Below, piece by piece: positions 13,647 through 22,353 of a stretch of 45,161 bases of DNA. The first letter of the stretch is position 1. Each line of letters starts with the position of its first letter. The translations under genes were made by a program, and so were the position numbers. Source of the DNA: Bacteriovorax sp. (GTDB lineage Bacteria > Bdellovibrionota > Bacteriovoracia > Bacteriovoracales > Bacteriovoracaceae); the NCBI GenBank assembly GCA_014377485.1, contig JACMPM010000107.1:1-45161 (forward strand), written 5' to 3'. The notes below the pieces were generated by a model that saw nothing but the letters and a program-made list of their open reading frames with translations, had not been told where the DNA came from and searched no databases.

Positions 13647-15725
13647 ATGAACGATATGTTGAAAAAAATGAAAATCTTCACACAGGGACCAGATGTTCTG
13701 GCCGCTGTTGGTATTTTGATGATTTTAGTGGTGATGATCGTTCCGATTCATCCCTTCCTGCTGGATTTGCTATTAGCTCTTTCACTGGCATTTTCAGTAA
13801 TGATCATGCTTGTTGCTCTCTATACAAAAAGACCATTGGATTTCTCTACATTTCCTTCTGTGCTTTTAATCTCGACACTTTTTCGACTGGCCCTAAACGT
13901 TGCATCAACTAGAAATATTTTGATTCACGGACCAAGTGACGGTACTGAGGCGGCGGGATCAATCATCAAATCTTTTGGTGAATTCGTTGTCGAAGGAAAT
14001 TTTGTTGTCGGTATCGTTATTTTTATTATTTTAGTCATCATCAACTTCATGGTTGTAACTAAAGGTGCTGGAAGGGTCGCTGAAGTTGCAGCTCGATTTA
14101 CATTAGATGCAATGCCCGGGAAGCAAATGGCGATCGACGCCGATTTGAATGCCGGATTAATCAATGATGTTGAAGCGAAAAGACGAAGAAAGGAAGTTGC
14201 AGAAGAAGCAGATTTTTACGGGTCGATGGACGGTGCTTCGAAGTTCGTTAGAGGAGATGCAATCGCGGGTATTTTAATTACAGCGATCAACATTATTGGC
14301 GGTATTATTATTGGTGTGGCCCAAAATGGTATGGATATCGGAAAGGCTGCTGAAACTTTTACTCTTCTTACAGTAGGGGATGGTCTTGTTACGCAAATTC
14401 CAGCTCTAATTATTTCTACTGCCGCCGGTATTCTTGTTACAAGAAATACTAACGATGACAATATCGGGACTCAGGTTTCGAAACAATTTAAGGTTCATCC
14501 AAAGGCCATATACATTGCAGGCGCCGTTTTAGTTTTCTTTGGTTTAATTCCAGGACTGCCAAAACTTCCATTTTTTATGATGGGAGGAATGTTGGGATTC
14601 GTTGCTTATAAAATTGAACAAAATAATTCAAAAGACGAACTTGCTGAAAAACAAAAATCAGTTGAAGTTACCAAAAAATCTAATCCACAAAATCTGGAAG
14701 AACTTCTCAACATGGAACTTGTTGAACTGGAAGTTGGTTACGGTTTAGTTCACTTGGTTGATACGGAACAAAACGGTGATCTCCTTGAGCGTATTACTCA
14801 TATGAGAAAAATATTTGCATTGGATTGGGGGGTTATCATTCCTTCAGTCAAGATCAAAGACAATCTGGAACTAAAGCCGGGTGGATACTCTGTTAAAATT
14901 AAAGGCATTCAAATCGCGAAAGGCGAGTTGATGTCTGATTATTTCCTGGCGATGGATCCAGGGACAGTCATTGAAAAAATGGATGGAGTTGAAACTACTG
15001 AACCAGTTTTTGGATTGCGTGCAGTTTGGATTTCTGAAGATCAAAAAGAAGATGCTCAATACAATGGATATACCGTAGTAGATTGCTCGACAATTGTCGC
15101 CACTCACTTAACAGAACTTTTAAAATCAAACCTTCATGAACTATTTGGACGTCAGGAATTAGTCCGTGTTGTGGACAATTTTAAAGAGACAAATCCAAAA
15201 TTGGTCAATGATTTAATTCCAGATATTTTAAATCTTGGAATAGTTTTAAAGGTCATGAAAAATTTACTAAGAGAAGGTGTTTCAGTTCGTGATCTACGCA
15301 CAATTTTAGAGACATTATCGGAGTATGGCTCTACAATTAAAGACACTGAAGCGCTTACCGAGTTCGCTCGTCAAGCTCTTTTTAGAACTATTACTGAGAA
15401 GATAAAAAGTGAATCTGGAGATATTCCATTGTTTACTTTAGATCGTAATATTGAAGAGTCGATTGCTCAAAATATTATACAGACAGATCAGGGACAACAG
15501 CTTTCTCTTGATCCAAAAGTTACTCAGATCATCCTGGCTTCACTCAATGAAAAAATTGAAGAAGCGACAAACATGGGTGAGAAGATGGTTGTTCTTTGCT
15601 CTCCGGTTATCCGCTCACACTTTAAGCGTTTAACTGAAAAATTTATTCCAAACCTTGTGGTAGTAAGCCACAATGAGCTTTCGCCAGATGCTAATATCAG
15701 GTCCCTTGGAACGGTGAGGTTGTAA
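13647..15725 (+). CDS. flhA: FlhA, flagellar export platform protein
   Basis: At 692 residues with about eight N-terminal membrane helices and a large cytoplasmic domain, this is a full-length FlhA. The FHIPEP-family signature is present as ARFTLDAMPGKQMAIDADLNAGLI, along with STLFRLALNVASTR. FlhA forms the nonameric ring that receives chaperone-substrate complexes and couples export to proton flow. It is followed by flhF after three bases. Confidence 0.98.
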   Translation: MNDMLKKMKIFTQGPDVLAAVGILMILVVMIVPIHPFLLDLLLALSLAFSVMIMLVALYTKRPLDFSTFPSVLLISTLFRLALNVASTRNILIHGPSDGTEAAGSIIKSFGEFVVEGNFVVGIVIFIILVIINFMVVTKGAGRVAEVAARFTLDAMPGKQMAIDADLNAGLINDVEAKRRRKEVAEEADFYGSMDGASKFVRGDAIAGILITAINIIGGIIIGVAQNGMDIGKAAETFTLLTVGDGLVTQIPALIISTAAGILVTRNTNDDNIGTQVSKQFKVHPKAIYIAGAVLVFFGLIPGLPKLPFFMMGGMLGFVAYKIEQNNSKDELAEKQKSVEVTKKSNPQNLEELLNMELVELEVGYGLVHLVDTEQNGDLLERITHMRKIFALDWGVIIPSVKIKDNLELKPGGYSVKIKGIQIAKGELMSDYFLAMDPGTVIEKMDGVETTEPVFGLRAVWISEDQKEDAQYNGYTVVDCSTIVATHLTELLKSNLHELFGRQELVRVVDNFKETNPKLVNDLIPDILNLGIVLKVMKNLLREGVSVRDLRTILETLSEYGSTIKDTEALTEFARQALFRTITEKIKSESGDIPLFTLDRNIEESIAQNIIQTDQGQQLSLDPKVTQIILASLNEKIEEATNMGEKMVVLCSPVIRSHFKRLTEKFIPNLVVVSHNELSPDANIRSLGTVRL

Positions 15726-15728
15726 TAA

Positions 15729-17255
15729 ATGTATGTAAGAAAATTTGAATCTGACACTATTGAAGAAGCACTTAGAGACATCAAACGCGAGCTTGGTCCT
15801 GATGCGGTTATTTTAAAAACAATAACCAACAAAGGATTGAAGGGCGCATTCAAAAAAAAGAAAATCGAAATTACAGCGGCTATTTCTGAAAAGAACTATG
15901 TGAGAAAAGCACAAGTCGATACTGTCTTGAATGAAGATCAAAAAGAAGAATTTTATAACTCTAGCTCTGGGTATATAGCCAATATGATAGATCAACATGA
16001 CCAATCAAGAGATAATAGACGAGGCAATTCAGAGTCCCCTCGAAGTGGAGCAGGATACGGCTCAATGGGACTTAATCGTCCGGTTGCATCTACCAAAGGC
16101 ATAGCTTCGCAAATTAAATCAGGAATAAGTGCAGGACTTGATGATTTTTTAAGTCTTGGTGAAAAAGAGGACAGACACACTCGATCAAATAAAAACGATT
16201 TTAATTTTGATGATGAAGTGGAAGCAAGTCGTCCAATTACTCAGGCTCCACGTAAAGAAGCCTCGAGAGAAATGCAAAGAGAAGTGCCTCAAGCTCAAAC
16301 TAGAAAAGAAATGCAATCAGCACCTGTTCAGCAACAACAGGTCAACTCGTCCGGGTCTCGTTTAATTGGTGAAGAAATGTACGAAAAACAAAAAACTAAA
16401 ATTGATGAATTAGAGAAAAAACTTTTTGAACTTACTCGCAGTTTTGAACGCATCCATAAAAAAGAACCAATCGGTGTTTACCAGCTTCGCACAACTCTTA
16501 GAAGTTTAGACATCAATGAATCTTATATTCAACACTTAATCAAGAAAGGATTATTTGAATTAACAGAATCAGATGTTGAAAATGCAGATATTGTTTTTGA
16601 ATTCGCACTTCGCGAAATGATGACAACTGTAAGTACAGCAATGCCACTTTTCTCAATGTCAGTTAATGGAAAAGAAGCTCAAAAAAATCCTGTTATCACT
16701 GTTTTTCTTTCAGAAGCATCATGCGGACAGAGTTCAATGGTTCAAAAAATTGGAACTATGAAAAAAGATTCAGTTATTATCAGAAATATCACTTCAGTCA
16801 ATGAACCTAAATCAAATTTCGCAGAAAAACTTTTTGGAATGAGTATTACAAAAGTTGCTAGCATCGCTGAAATTGTTTCTGAATGCCGTAAAGCAATTGA
16901 GAGCGGGAAATGTGTTTTCATTGATTACAAATGCAACGAGACAGAAAGCAATGATACTAAGAAATTTATTGACGGACTAAGACGCGCTTTTTCAAAAGTG
17001 GAAGTATTGATCACTCTTTCAGCAATTCATACAGAATTATATAATAGAAAGGTTCTTGGCACTTATCGAAGACTATCGGACGGTGTGGTCGTATCGCATT
17101 TAGATGCATGCTTGAACTTTGGATCACTTTTTAATATCACTCAAGATATCAAAGATCTTCCATACAAGTTTTTTGGAACTGGAGAAGTTATTCCAGATGA
17201 TTTAGAAGCTGCAACATCAGAGAGAATAATGGCAGGGATTTTTAAGTTTTCGTAA
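15729..17255 (+). CDS. flhF: FlhF-like protein with a degenerate SRP-GTPase domain
   Basis: The N-terminal FlhF signature is clear (MYVRKFESDTIEEALRDIKRELGPDAVILKT, then KKKKIEITAAI). It is followed by a low-complexity linker and a helical N domain (about residues 220-315). The G domain keeps its fold and ending (FFGTGEVIPDDLEAAT) but has lost the nucleotide motifs. The P-loop G-x4-G-K-S/T reads S328-E-A-S-C-G-Q334-S, DTAGR reads D399-Y-K-C-N, and TKLD reads S456-H-L-D. FlhF normally uses GTP-dependent dimerisation to place the flagellum at the pole. This copy probably cannot bind or hydrolyse GTP normally. The frame is intact and the operon position is standard, so it is likely functional in a nucleotide-independent way. 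Confidence 0.88.
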   Translation: MYVRKFESDTIEEALRDIKRELGPDAVILKTITNKGLKGAFKKKKIEITAAISEKNYVRKAQVDTVLNEDQKEEFYNSSSGYIANMIDQHDQSRDNRRGNSESPRSGAGYGSMGLNRPVASTKGIASQIKSGISAGLDDFLSLGEKEDRHTRSNKNDFNFDDEVEASRPITQAPRKEASREMQREVPQAQTRKEMQSAPVQQQQVNSSGSRLIGEEMYEKQKTKIDELEKKLFELTRSFERIHKKEPIGVYQLRTTLRSLDINESYIQHLIKKGLFELTESDVENADIVFEFALREMMTTVSTAMPLFSMSVNGKEAQKNPVITVFLSEASCGQSSMVQKIGTMKKDSVIIRNITSVNEPKSNFAEKLFGMSITKVASIAEIVSECRKAIESGKCVFIDYKCNETESNDTKKFIDGLRRAFSKVEVLITLSAIHTELYNRKVLGTYRRLSDGVVVSHLDACLNFGSLFNITQDIKDLPYKFFGTGEVIPDDLEAATSERIMAGIFKFS

Positions 17256-17334: not shown

Positions 17335-18222
17335 ATGCTTAGTTTAAAAAAGCCCAATCCAGGTGATTGGCTAGTATCTCAGAATAAGTACCAGTCCAAA
17401 AAAACAAGTCTTAAAGCAAAAACAATTTCTGTTACCGCAGGTAAAGGCGGAGTAGGAAAAACTTCAGTTGCAGTGAAGATGGCTAAAATTTTAGCCAATA
17501 CTGGTTATAAAGTTTTATTGCTCGATTGCGATACTAATTTATCGAATACGGTAGTGAAGCTTGGGCTTCCTATCAATAATTATTTCTATGAGCTTATTTC
17601 AGCTCAGAGAGATTTTGAAGACTGTCTCCATAAAGACGGCAACCTCCATTTACTTTCCGGTTGTAATGGAAGCATTGATCTTTTTAATAAAAATTTAGAA
17701 GTTGATCGAATCATCATTGATATTCTTGTTAATCACGAGCGTGATTATGATTATATAATTCTCGATTGCCCGGCCGGAATCACCAAAGAAACACTTACCT
17801 TAAATGCTTACAGCGACTACCGCTTTGTGATCGTGACACCTGATAAATCGTCTGTCACAGACTCATATTCTCTGATTAAAATTTTGAATAAAGAATTTGG
17901 AGTGAATGACAATCATTTACTGATCAATAAAATATCCTCAGAACCACAATACCAAAGAATGGTAAAAACCTTGAGTGAAACAGTCGAAACATTCCTAAAA
18001 TGCCGACTTCACATCCTGGGAGGAATTGAAAATGTTGATGCTCCAGTAGATCAATTCGATACACTTTTGCTCAATCAGGAAAATTCTTCCCTGCATAAAA
18101 ATTTCGTGAAAATTGTAAAGAAATTTACCGAAGAGATAGAGGGCGCAGCTTTGAGTGCAGAATCTAAATTTGTACCAAAATTCACAACTCGCCTCGGACA
18201 CGATGTTCGTTTTACAGTTTAA
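17335..18222 (+). CDS. flhG: FlhG (FleN), MinD-like ATPase controlling flagellar number
   Basis: This MinD/ParA-family protein has an intact deviant Walker A motif K37-G-G-V-G-K-T43, a switch I region VLLLDCDTNLSN and a Walker B region YIILDCPAG, so ATP binding should be retained. FlhG limits flagellar number and feeds back on FlhF. In studied FlhG proteins an N-terminal DQAxxLR helix inserts into FlhF and stimulates its GTPase. Here the first 30 residues contain no such motif, which matches the degenerate FlhF upstream. GGAGACAGGA precedes the ATG. The C-terminal tail (about 265-295) lacks an obvious long amphipathic membrane-targeting helix. Confidence 0.93.
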   Translation: MLSLKKPNPGDWLVSQNKYQSKKTSLKAKTISVTAGKGGVGKTSVAVKMAKILANTGYKVLLLDCDTNLSNTVVKLGLPINNYFYELISAQRDFEDCLHKDGNLHLLSGCNGSIDLFNKNLEVDRIIIDILVNHERDYDYIILDCPAGITKETLTLNAYSDYRFVIVTPDKSSVTDSYSLIKILNKEFGVNDNHLLINKISSEPQYQRMVKTLSETVETFLKCRLHILGGIENVDAPVDQFDTLLLNQENSSLHKNFVKIVKKFTEEIEGAALSAESKFVPKFTTRLGHDVRFTV

Positions 18223-18234
18223 GGGAGGACCCGT

Positions 18235-19020
18235 ATGTCGACTCTATCTAAGAAATTAAAGAACCTAAAAGACTATCGCTCTACAGTAGGGCCAAAGGTA
18301 AAAGATGACATAATCATCGAGTACGCACCTTTGGTAAAGTACATAGCGCAAAAGATAGCGTCACGCCTTCCATCGAATATTGAATTAGATGATTTAATTT
18401 CATGTGGTGTAATCGGTCTGATGGATGCAATTGAAAAATTTGATCCGACTCGCGACAATAAATTTAAGACCTATGCTGAATTCAGAATTCGAGGGGCCAT
18501 CCTTGATGAACTTCGCGCGCAAGACTGGGTTCCCCGTTCAATTCGTGAAAAAACAAAGACTGTGGAAAGAGCTTATTCAAAACTTGAAGCTAATTTAGGT
18601 CGTCCGGCAACTGACGAAGAAATGTGCGTTGAGCTTAATATGAATCAAGAAGAATTCCATGATTTATTAAACAAAGCGAAATCAATTTCGTTATTAAACA
18701 TTGATGATTCTGCTAGTTTTAATAAAGGCGATAAAAAGCTAATTTCTGAAGTTATGGAAGATCATCGTGCTCTTAATCCATATACAACTGTAAGTCAGAA
18801 AGATTCACGCGAAAAAATAAAAGAAGGAATTATGACTTTGCCTGAAAAGCAAAGACTCGTACTTTCTTTATACTATTATGAAGATTTGAACTTAAAAGAA
18901 ATCGGACAAGTTCTTGACGTTACAGAGTCAAGAGTCTCTCAGTTACACACCCAAGCAATCTTGAAACTTAAAACAAAACTTAGAACATTGTTTGACTCAG
19001 TAGAGGATCTTGCGAGCTAA
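18235..19020 (+). CDS. fliA: FliA, flagellar sigma factor sigma-28
   Basis: All regions of a sigma-28 factor are present. Region 2 runs VKYIAQKIASRLPSNIELDDLISCGVIGLMDAIEKFD and continues into FKTYAEFRIRGAILDELRAQDWVPRSIR. Region 3 follows, and region 4 is recognised by LPEKQRLVLSLYYYEDLNLKEIGQVLDVTESRVSQLHTQAI. It would direct late flagellar genes such as flagellin and motor/chemotaxis genes. The length (261) is normal and GGGAGG precedes the start. The next gene begins on the base after its stop codon. The anti-sigma factor FlgM is not in this window. Confidence 0.96.
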   Translation: MSTLSKKLKNLKDYRSTVGPKVKDDIIIEYAPLVKYIAQKIASRLPSNIELDDLISCGVIGLMDAIEKFDPTRDNKFKTYAEFRIRGAILDELRAQDWVPRSIREKTKTVERAYSKLEANLGRPATDEEMCVELNMNQEEFHDLLNKAKSISLLNIDDSASFNKGDKKLISEVMEDHRALNPYTTVSQKDSREKIKEGIMTLPEKQRLVLSLYYYEDLNLKEIGQVLDVTESRVSQLHTQAILKLKTKLRTLFDSVEDLAS

Positions 19021-19974
19021 ATGGAAAAAAGAAATTATCATTCAGATTATGAGATGAGTTTGAGTACTCTAGAGGACATCCAACTCCTTTCTGAGTTCTC
19101 AATGTCTCCCTTGATAGGACGAGCTTATTTCCACTTGTCAGAGATAAAGAGAAAAGCCGATGCCTCAAGCTTAGGTCATGTCGCTCACTACGATCAGGTG
19201 GCAAAAGTTCTCGATGAGAAATTTGAATCTATTTTTACAGATTTTTTTAGCAATAAATCAAAGTTCAAAAATTTTGATTATTACAAATCAACTGCAAAGA
19301 TTGACCTGAAAAAATGGAATCTCATTCTGGAAATTATTCCAGAAGTTCTCTCAATCGTTTCCATGTTTAATTATCACGGGACAATTGAAACTAGACTTGA
19401 CGAGAGCAGGCTTCTTGTTTCGGGCATGATTCTGGAAGATGGACATCTTCAGATGAATCGCAAATTTATCTATGTAGTAACCAGAAAGCTTTTAAAACAA
19501 AAAGTTCTAATTACTTTTAACTTGGAAAAGACAGCAAGGACCGGACTATTTAAGTTGGATTTAAAAGTCGATATTTCTCATGATGATTCTCTGGTTTATA
19601 AGGTAAATTTTAAAACTAACCCAAAAGAAAATTATTTGGTCGGTTTTTCAAATATTTTTTGTCATTACCGTGCGCTTCTCGAAGACGTTAAGACAGTTGG
19701 TGAACACAATATTATTGAAATTTCTAGTGACCTAAGTGTGAAGCATTCGCTGGGAGTACCGGACTTAAGCCGTCTGGAATCAGCAAACAAAGAAATTTTA
19801 CACTTTCCCTTTTTATTTCGCCCCGTTTCTATCATACTACCAATGAAAGGGAATCTTTCTACAGATTCATTTACACGTAGTTTATCTAGTAGTCATGATG
19901 ACGAACAAAAGAGGGAACAGAATGTTTCTACATATTATCGAACAATCGATTTCTTCTCCTTATTCAATATCTAA
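19021..19974 (+). CDS. Protein of unknown function directly coupled to fliA
   Basis: A 317-residue protein without signal peptide, membrane segment or recognisable domain. Its ATG is the base triplet immediately after the fliA stop, so translation is probably coupled. The N-terminus is helical. The centre (about residues 100-240) alternates beta strands (IETRLDESRLLVSGMIL, FIYVVTRKLLKQKVLITFNL, TGLFKLDLKVDIS), suggesting an alpha/beta or beta-sandwich fold. The C-terminal 40 residues are Ser-rich. Position between fliA and a sensor-like membrane protein argues for a flagellar or chemotaxis role, but nothing in the sequence identifies it. Confidence 0.75.
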   Translation: MEKRNYHSDYEMSLSTLEDIQLLSEFSMSPLIGRAYFHLSEIKRKADASSLGHVAHYDQVAKVLDEKFESIFTDFFSNKSKFKNFDYYKSTAKIDLKKWNLILEIIPEVLSIVSMFNYHGTIETRLDESRLLVSGMILEDGHLQMNRKFIYVVTRKLLKQKVLITFNLEKTARTGLFKLDLKVDISHDDSLVYKVNFKTNPKENYLVGFSNIFCHYRALLEDVKTVGEHNIIEISSDLSVKHSLGVPDLSRLESANKEILHFPFLFRPVSIILPMKGNLSTDSFTRSLSSSHDDEQKREQNVSTYYRTIDFFSLFNI

Positions 19975-19998: not shown

Positions 19999-22353
19999 AT
20001 GCGATTTACTCTAGGACGAGTTGTGCATTTTTATTACGTTATTGTACTAGTTGCGATGACTGGGCTTTTTGCATATGGAGCAAAACACTATTGGGAAGCT
20101 GGTCTTTTAAATATTGATTACGTCAGCAATCTTTACGATGGAACAAGTAAAGTACACGCTGTAAAAGAACGTGCAGATGTTGAAGAAATAAAAAAATTCG
20201 CGGATGGTGATCGCATAAAAGATGCAAATCGAATTTTTAATAGACTTGAGCAAGATATTCGTGATTTAAAATCTATTAAGCCGGGTGATAAAAATACTTT
20301 TGATGAAAATACTAAAAAAGTAAAAGTTGCATTAAATAATTTCCAAACAGCTCCTGAACTAACAACCATTCTTAATAATATCACTGCAAAAGTCACGAGT
20401 TTTGAAAATTTTGTTACAGAAAAGAAATGGCCAACACTAAGTAAAATGGCAGTCAACTTGCGAATTAAAACCTCTCCCGGTCGTTTAATGCAAGGAGGTC
20501 TTTATAATTTTGAAAAGACTCAAACACTTACTCAATCAGTAAATAACGATATAGAAGCAATGACAAATTTCACTGAGTCGTCAGGACTTCCTTCTGATAT
20601 TAAGACAGCAATAATAAATCGCATTCAAACGATTAAAACAGAAGTTGCCAACTTAGAAACATACGTAGATGACCACAAGAAATTCAATCGTGTTTATAAA
20701 GACTTCGCCAATGATTACCATGCATGGTTTAAATTTGTTGAACCAGAAATCGCTTTAAAGAAAATTCAATTCGAAAAAAGTTCACAAACAATTCTTTATT
20801 CTTTGATTATTATTTTTTCCGGCATGATAGCTTCATTAGCACTTGGTTTTGTAATTTATAATTATTCTACAAAACGTGGATCTAAGAAAACTGAAAAATT
20901 AATCTTAGACACTATTAAAGAAGGACTTCTTCCTACGGAAGCAAAGGGAAGTGAAAAATTTTCTCCTGAGTTCCGTAATGAATTAGAAAAATATCGGGAT
21001 TATGTACATAAAAGAATGAGTTTTGGCAGTATTTTTCAAGAGGCTATGCCTTTTGCTTCTATTCTTCTTGATTCAAATCTCAATTTAGTTTGGGGTAATT
21101 CACATTTTTATGATCAGTGGCAATTGCAAAATTTTAATCAAGATGGAGATGATTCACTGACTTGGGATTTTTTACAAAGATTCACAAATCTTGAAGACAA
21201 TAGTTCTATTCTTAATGCTCTTCGCATGAGTGCTTCAGGAGTTTATAAGATTCAAGTAAAAAATGCTTCTATGGCCAAACCTTTGCCCTATGAAATGCAT
21301 GTTTCACCAGTTGAGTATTCTGCACAAAAACGAATAATGATTATTTTTTACCCAATGTCTGAAACTGAAATTCGCCTTGATAGTCAAAAGGCTTCGATCA
21401 TTGCGCCTATGTTGAAAGCTATGGATGCTCATTTAAATGAAACAATGACTACCGAGCTAAAATTCACTTTGAGAAATGAGTCCGAAAAAGCTGGAATTCC
21501 CGAACTATTTTCTAGATTTTTGCAATATGTTGAAAAGAATGAAACTATTCATGATGAACATACCGGAGAGATAGAAAGACTTGAAAATGAACTTCAGACT
21601 CAAAGAAACGTCGTAGGTGAAATTAGAAAAACTGTCGTAGCTTCTTTTGAAACCCAAAGAGCTTCAATTGACAGGTATAACCAATTCAAGTCTTCTGTTA
21701 CAGCAGTTCTAGATGCGAGAGACCAGCTCGAAGAGCAATTTAAATATGCTCTAAGTTCATCTAGAGAGTTTTATAAGGATCAAAATAAAATTCTAAGCAG
21801 TGCAGAAAAAGCTGATAAAACAGTTGATGAGTACGTGAAGAGCTTGAAAACAATCACTGTTCTAAAAACTGATTTCAAAGATCTCAAAGGCAATGTTGAA
21901 GAATTTAAATCAAGAATTACTCAAGTACTAGATCAATTACTAATATTCCAAAACCATGAAGATGGTGCTTTAAGAGTTGATCAGTTTCTTGGCAAAGTTA
22001 AACTGGAAATGAAAGGATTTGAAAAAGTACTAAATGGATTTAGTCAGGTAGTCACGCAATTGGACATAACTGTTACTAAATTAGACATGATGGTTGAATC
22101 TCGTGAGAAAATGGATTTGGAAGGTGTTAGGCTACGTCTGGATGCCGTTAAAAATAATCTAGAGAATGCACAATTCTCAGCTTCAAAAATATCACAAAAT
22201 GCCCATTCAAAAGATGATGAAATGGTCGGTGTGTTAAAAGGACTTATTGTAAACTTGAAAACTGAAATGAAGCGTATAGATGAAATGTGCAGATTGACAG
22301 GGTTAACGTCTGAGCACCTAAAAGTCATTGCACCATTAGAGAATCAGGCTTAA
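19999..22353 (+). CDS. Large two-TM sensor-like protein: periplasmic helical domain, PAS-like domain, coiled coil
   Basis: The 784-residue layout resembles a chemoreceptor. A first membrane segment at about residues 9-27 is followed by a roughly 235-residue periplasmic helical region and a second membrane segment at about 265-290. A PAS-like domain follows (about 341-452, with FASILLDSNLNLVWGNSHFYDQW). The last 260 residues form long coiled coil. However, the conserved chemoreceptor hairpin tip that contacts CheA and CheW is not visible, and neither is a HAMP signature. There is no kinase or cyclase domain. It is the last gene of the flagellar operon and ends at a strong terminator. A localisation or structural factor for the flagellum is as likely as a sensor. 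Confidence 0.75.
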   Translation: MRFTLGRVVHFYYVIVLVAMTGLFAYGAKHYWEAGLLNIDYVSNLYDGTSKVHAVKERADVEEIKKFADGDRIKDANRIFNRLEQDIRDLKSIKPGDKNTFDENTKKVKVALNNFQTAPELTTILNNITAKVTSFENFVTEKKWPTLSKMAVNLRIKTSPGRLMQGGLYNFEKTQTLTQSVNNDIEAMTNFTESSGLPSDIKTAIINRIQTIKTEVANLETYVDDHKKFNRVYKDFANDYHAWFKFVEPEIALKKIQFEKSSQTILYSLIIIFSGMIASLALGFVIYNYSTKRGSKKTEKLILDTIKEGLLPTEAKGSEKFSPEFRNELEKYRDYVHKRMSFGSIFQEAMPFASILLDSNLNLVWGNSHFYDQWQLQNFNQDGDDSLTWDFLQRFTNLEDNSSILNALRMSASGVYKIQVKNASMAKPLPYEMHVSPVEYSAQKRIMIIFYPMSETEIRLDSQKASIIAPMLKAMDAHLNETMTTELKFTLRNESEKAGIPELFSRFLQYVEKNETIHDEHTGEIERLENELQTQRNVVGEIRKTVVASFETQRASIDRYNQFKSSVTAVLDARDQLEEQFKYALSSSREFYKDQNKILSSAEKADKTVDEYVKSLKTITVLKTDFKDLKGNVEEFKSRITQVLDQLLIFQNHEDGALRVDQFLGKVKLEMKGFEKVLNGFSQVVTQLDITVTKLDMMVESREKMDLEGVRLRLDAVKNNLENAQFSASKISQNAHSKDDEMVGVLKGLIVNLKTEMKRIDEMCRLTGLTSEHLKVIAPLENQA

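Follow-up and report, generated by a model that had tools for sequence, protein, structure and literature searches.

How a bacterium might keep FlhF, and with it a polar flagellum, once the GTPase motifs of the protein have been rewritten is the question raised by the locus described here. FlhF is elsewhere described as a GTP-driven switch that places a single polar flagellum. Point mutants have been used to argue that it needs GTP binding, hydrolysis or neither, and the results conflict between species. The present locus leads to a natural case, in which the GTPase cycle and the activator helix of the partner FlhG both appear to have been removed in a clade whose cultured members have one polar flagellum. 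The window (the whole stretch of 45,161 nucleotides that was analysed) comes from an organism near Bacteriovorax and carries its flagellar cluster. It holds flhA (13647-15725) and, directly after it, flhF (15729..17255), then flhG (17335..18222) and a fliA-type sigma factor gene (18235..19020), the last three and all features within them lying on the plus strand. This flhA-flhF-flhG-fliA order matches what is expected of an FlhF operon.

The 508-residue product of flhF had been called FlhF in the original prediction, and operon position, domain structure and fold all agree with that call. An N-terminal B-domain (residues 1-66, 15729..15926) is followed by an NG domain (16368..17252), as is characteristic of the family, and the B-domain is the best conserved part of the protein, with a mean conservation of 0.64 vs 0.50 for the G domain. 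TIGR03499 matches residues 1-298 with 61 bits (E 1.5e-16), below the curated NCBIfam cut-off of 174. The NG domain model is well formed (pLDDT 89.1, pTM 0.82), and its best Foldseek match is the S. putrefaciens FlhF 8r9r, with the B. subtilis structures 2px3 and 2px0 also matched. A profile search against solved structures placed 2px0 first (E 2.8e-33) and 8r9r next, with FtsY at about 1e-18. The B-domain, NG fold, operon position and FlhG neighbour are thus shared with the FlhFs of B. subtilis (2PX0/2PX3), S. putrefaciens (8R9R), Vibrio, Pseudomonas and Campylobacter.

The nucleotide motifs are where the resemblance ends: G1 GxxxxGK[ST], G2, G3 DTAGR and G4 TKxD are all missing in their canonical form. 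When the ORF was read directly and its codons checked by hand, the P-loop was found to be S328-E-A-S-C-G-Q334-S-S336 (16710..16736), with Ser328 (tca, 16710-16712) in place of the first Gly and Gln334 (cag, 16728-16730) in place of the Lys. D399-Y-K-C-N (16923..16937) replaces DTAGR and S456-H-L-D459 (17094..17105) replaces TKxD with its Asp kept, while a G5-like F481-F-G-T-G-E-V-I-P-D-D-L-E493 (17169..17207) is retained. The three altered motifs and the intact 508-codon frame are as had been predicted. A second, canonical flhF was also looked for; a PF00448 search of the whole window genome returned only Ffh, FtsY, FlhF and a weak flhG match, so that genome has no second flhF. This complete search for canonical copies covers the window genome, and PF00448 counts for the class are among the matches listed.

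The changes extend far beyond one organism. Our class sample comprised 129 genomes of the GTDB class of Bacteriovorax and its kin, taken to be Bacteriovoracia (one family, 48 genera, mostly MAGs), and a profile search found FlhF in 120 of them, the weak match in one of these (G097) probably representing Ffh or FtsY. Motifs were counted in 119 unique class FlhF sequences, two of them partial at the P-loop. Gln occupies the Lys position in 117/117 readable sequences and is the most conserved G-domain residue in the class, and the first P-loop Gly is Ser in 115/117. G2 is unrecognisable, and G3 and G4 keep only their Asp: Asp399 (118/119) is followed freely by Y/L/V/F/I and then mostly K/R, and the G4 Lys position is mostly His, Asn or Tyr ahead of an Asp459 present in 118/118. 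Gly333 (116/117), Ser or Thr at 335 (113/117), and Gly485 and Asp491 of the G5-like element (117/117 each) are also conserved. Against random G-domain sets, conservation was higher for residues 333-335 (p 0.004) and weakly higher for G4 and G5 (p about 0.05), and that of G2 and G3 in the class was not above such sets. Class FlhFs are unlike the solved and experimentally studied ones in their Lys-to-Gln P-loop and in the loss of G2, G3 and the G4 Lys, and the window protein also falls below the curated NCBIfam cut-off. Single deviations were seen in L030, the only class FlhF with Ala for Gly333 (AQ instead of GQ), and in L084, where one in-frame TAG marks an assembly error or else a broken copy. 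An open-access literature search found FlhF joined in substance neither with Bacteriovorax nor with 'pseudo-GTPase', which is weak evidence of novelty.

Loss of motifs on this scale could be read as ongoing decay, that is, a degenerating gene carried along by its operon, and the low PF00448 match (26.8 bits) and the distance between 61 bits and the TIGR03499 cut-off of 174 would fit such a reading. The pattern across relatives makes it highly improbable. Aligned orthologues at about 30-96% identity carry the same changes, which are therefore not sequencing error or chance, and Gln334 is invariant down to about 30% identity. Frames are open in nearly all genomes, the modelled fold is intact, and pairwise comparisons between congeners gave dN/dS values of 0.04-0.10 for the NG domain, indicative of strong purifying selection. 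Class-wide invariance and dN/dS together rule out a local error or decay. Retention is equally strict: FlhF is found in 116 of the 117 class genomes with FlhA, the sole exception being G012, whose flhA match reaches only position 594 of the 657-position model; we read this as the end of a contig. The original prediction of a retained non-GTPase rather than a decaying gene is thus supported. The window protein is an FlhF, of the third SRP-type GTPase family, under purifying selection and with an NG fold that is predicted to be intact. Pseudo-GTPases keep the G-domain fold without turnover, eukaryotic CENP-M being one example. Class FlhF would resemble these in keeping the G-fold as a scaffold but belongs to an unrelated family, and here one bacterial orthologue family has changed throughout a class, together with its activator.

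That activator is FlhG, whose DQAxxLR helix stimulates the FlhF GTPase through its Gln, according to a 2025 review (PMC12826062). In the window, flhG encodes a MinD/ParA-type ATPase with an intact deviant Walker A motif, GKGGVGKT, and the GKGGVGK[TS] P-loop is present in every class FlhG readable there. With its MinD-like ATPase and its position directly downstream of flhF, class FlhG resembles the FlhG, FleN and MinD2 proteins that carry the enhancer helix. It differs from them at the N-terminus, where DQAxxLR was found in 0/107 readable class sequences; the same kind of pattern does find DQAxxLR in relatives from the same phylum. In its place the class has a motif of its own about 30 residues before the P-loop, W-L or rarely W-R in 106/107 and typically [ED]-W-L-x-S, which in the window reads P-G-D-W-L-V-S (17359..17379). 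The exception, L035, is among the most divergent members. Because the helix is described as the stimulator of the FlhF GTPase, its joint absence fits a loss of the GTPase cycle; neither this co-loss nor the aflagellate genus described below formed part of the original prediction. The W-L-x-S motif could be a new FlhF-binding element. A tandem FlhF-FlhG model of a congener, made as an artificial read-through chain of the two in-frame neighbouring genes with the intervening stop codons read as Ser, had a pTM of 0.51 and a pLDDT of about 40 for the W-L segment. No confident contact between that segment and FlhF was seen, so the proposed new interface is without structural support. In a DUF2802 (FipA) search, the controls were silent.

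Other families of the phylum were used to place the losses. GK[ST] is kept in 58/58 FlhFs sampled from eleven other families, and a 100-row tree, built with the motif columns taken out, separates the class from the other sequences by a fully supported branch with a stem length of 2.15. The Lys-to-Gln exchange needs one change on this tree. The best explanation of these data is that the FlhF lineage lost the GTPase cycle once, in the common ancestor of the class. What had been predicted for a single bacterium is thus real and is a trait of one origin shared by a whole class. Loss of the catalytic Arg of G2 was considered as a further class marker and dropped because Lys prevails at this position throughout the families sampled in the phylum.

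Several families seem to show intermediate states, which makes the order of losses testable. In f7, f8, f9, f20 and f25, the P-loop is canonical or near-canonical, mostly with DTxG and [TS]KxD, and DQAxxLR is present in 13 of their FlhGs; elsewhere in these families, FlhG is not beside flhF or its start is unreadable. Three families that form one clade in the tree, f6 (probably Bdellovibrionaceae), f11 and f18, are like the class in having FlhGs without DQAxxLR and altered FlhF motifs, with a G3 of D[YF]xG or DTPG type and a mostly changed G4 (TKLD is kept in f18). Unlike the class, they retain GK[ST] in the P-loop, and nucleotide binding is therefore likely kept there. This looks like a stepwise loss with hydrolysis control going first and the P-loop last, an order that depends on a rooted species tree. 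The single f17 genome, with a canonical FlhF and no FlhG helix, fits it poorly. Two further variants were noted. The FlhFs of f12 (L039, L040, L166, L167, L174 and L191-L193) have a normal P-loop Lys and an unrecognisable G2, and FlhG was not found in the stretches fetched for these loci. In f3 (L043, L045), FlhF-like proteins of about 370 aa have a canonical P-loop, and DSPA replaces DTAG.

Substitution of the P-loop Lys can leave weak nucleotide binding, and how much of the pocket still matters was assessed against mutants of V. alginolyticus FlhF. There, T306A and D439A abolish flagella, whereas G299A, G304A, K305A, D377A, K437A and G380A are partly or largely tolerated, some flagella still being made by the K305A mutant (PMC6092412). 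By motif-register mapping, the class keeps the T306 and D439 positions as Ser/Thr335 and Asp459 and has changed those matching G299, K305, K437 and G380. The pattern fits an FlhF that has dispensed with catalysis and with the Lys while part of the pocket is still needed, as a structural lock or for holding a ligand. The original prediction spoke of a dismantled active site. That description is right for the Lys, the first Gly, DTAGR and the G4 Lys; Ser/Thr335, Asp399, Asp459 and the G5-like TG at 484-485 persist, so that some of the nucleotide-contacting residues remain. Judged by its residues, the pocket has been rewritten, and 'dismantled' alone overstates the change. The prediction had also taken GTP-dependent dimerisation as the accepted way of fixing a polar flagellum, and this needs a caveat, since in V. 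alginolyticus and P. aeruginosa hydrolysis is reported to be dispensable for polar placement, with GTP binding thought to be needed (PMC6092412, PMC12713375).

One possibility is that the Lys-less pocket still binds a guanine nucleotide (GTP, GDP or an alarmone) and that binding rather than hydrolysis is used, as is reported for Vibrio and Pseudomonas. An invariant Gln334 beside a kept Ser/Thr335 and Asp459 leaves room for a ligand, and the conservation of the latter two is a hint that the pocket may still be occupied by a nucleotide. Gly333, Asp399 and Gly485 are kept as well, and the two residues essential in V. alginolyticus are among those retained, the lost ones matching substitutions that are partly or largely tolerated. 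The fold matches also included 7o9f, a solved complex of Ffh with ppGpp, and SRP-type NG domains therefore bind alarmones. On the other side, the Lys, the first Gly, G2 and most of G3 were lost together, the G4 Lys has mostly become His, Asn or Tyr, and the FlhG activator is lost too. On balance, we consider this binding-only reading less likely than not.

At the level of sequence, the P-loop Lys, G2, G3 and the G4 Lys have disappeared throughout the class, the FlhG helix is replaced by W-L-x-S, and FlhF is strictly retained under purifying selection. Cultured Bacteriovorax have a single polar flagellum (PMC12642874, PMC7175336), as shown for the cultured members rather than for the organism of the window, so polar placement is achieved in the group. 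The explanation that we favour, with reasonable though far from full confidence, is that FlhF of this class, having lost the GTPase cycle once, is a scaffold that does not hydrolyse GTP and that FlhG would control across a rebuilt interface. With its conserved B-domain and NG domain, this FlhF would bring the earliest flagellar components, FliF/FliG, to the pole. The FlhG ATPase, acting via its new N-terminal motif, may then provide the switching on and off for which other FlhF systems rely on GTP hydrolysis. The pocket, with Gln334, Ser/Thr335, Asp459 and Gly485, would serve as a structural lock for one conformation or would hold a ligand without turnover. Our data suggest that a flagellum is positioned without a GTPase cycle in a whole class of predator-type bacteria.

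A different view of the protein is offered by g55, a genus represented by four genomes in which no FlhA, FliG, flagellin or FliF match was found. Three of them (G096, G098 and G099; 94-99% complete; loci L228, L227 and L226, and also L153, L152 and L150) keep a shortened FlhF of the class kind. The P-loop aligns as GQ[ST] in L150 and L152, and the ORF of the third genome reads SPRSSGQSSM. In all three, FlhF lies directly upstream of a fliA-type gene, and no flhG was found near it, by search within 19 kb around flhF in two genomes and among the ORFs of the third. The dN/dS of FlhF between G099 and G098 was 0.06, close to the 0.05 of the neighbouring DsbA-type gene, and 0.26 against the more distant G096, values that are rough since dS is high. 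As FlhF has been kept where flagella were lost, it probably has a role besides flagellum placement, and this genus provides a way to find it.

Taken further, these genomes could mean that class FlhF no longer places the flagellum at all and is retained to serve some other polar or regulatory function, for instance with the FliA-type sigma factor, with other landmarks placing the flagellum. The conserved flhF beside a fliA-type gene in a genus without flagellar genes or an adjacent flhG speaks for this. However, the flagellated members examined keep the flhA-flhF-flhG-fliA arrangement, G095, in which no FlhA, FliF or flagellin match was found, has no FlhF match either, and a role added to the flagellar one is simpler than a replacement. 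We therefore regard a complete change of job as improbable. The scaffold reading can be extended to a stronger form, which we put forward tentatively and hold to be somewhat less than an even prospect. In this form, the class would run FlhF as a nucleotide-independent polar organiser, with switching wholly moved to FlhG via the W-L motif and with a flagellum-independent role that allowed FlhF to survive in the flagella-less genus.

Several neighbouring genes were noted in the course of this work. The g55 loci form a block of flhF, the fliA-type sigma factor gene and a membrane protein gene, without flhG nearby. Directly before flhF in g55, and sharing a few bases with the start of flhF, lies a gene for a protein of about 170 aa (L150 2026-2547; L153 1935-2444) that gave no convincing Pfam match. 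In the window, fliA is directly followed by a 317-aa protein (19021-19974) with no Pfam match at all, and further downstream by a 784-aa protein (19999-22353) with an N-terminal hydrophobic stretch, a long helical-looking region and no Pfam assignment above cut-off. A homologue of the latter stays beside flhF and fliA in g55 (E 2.5e-15). Elsewhere in the window's genome (G000), nine Flagellin_N matches were found on contigs C19, C23, C36, C41, C76 and C130.
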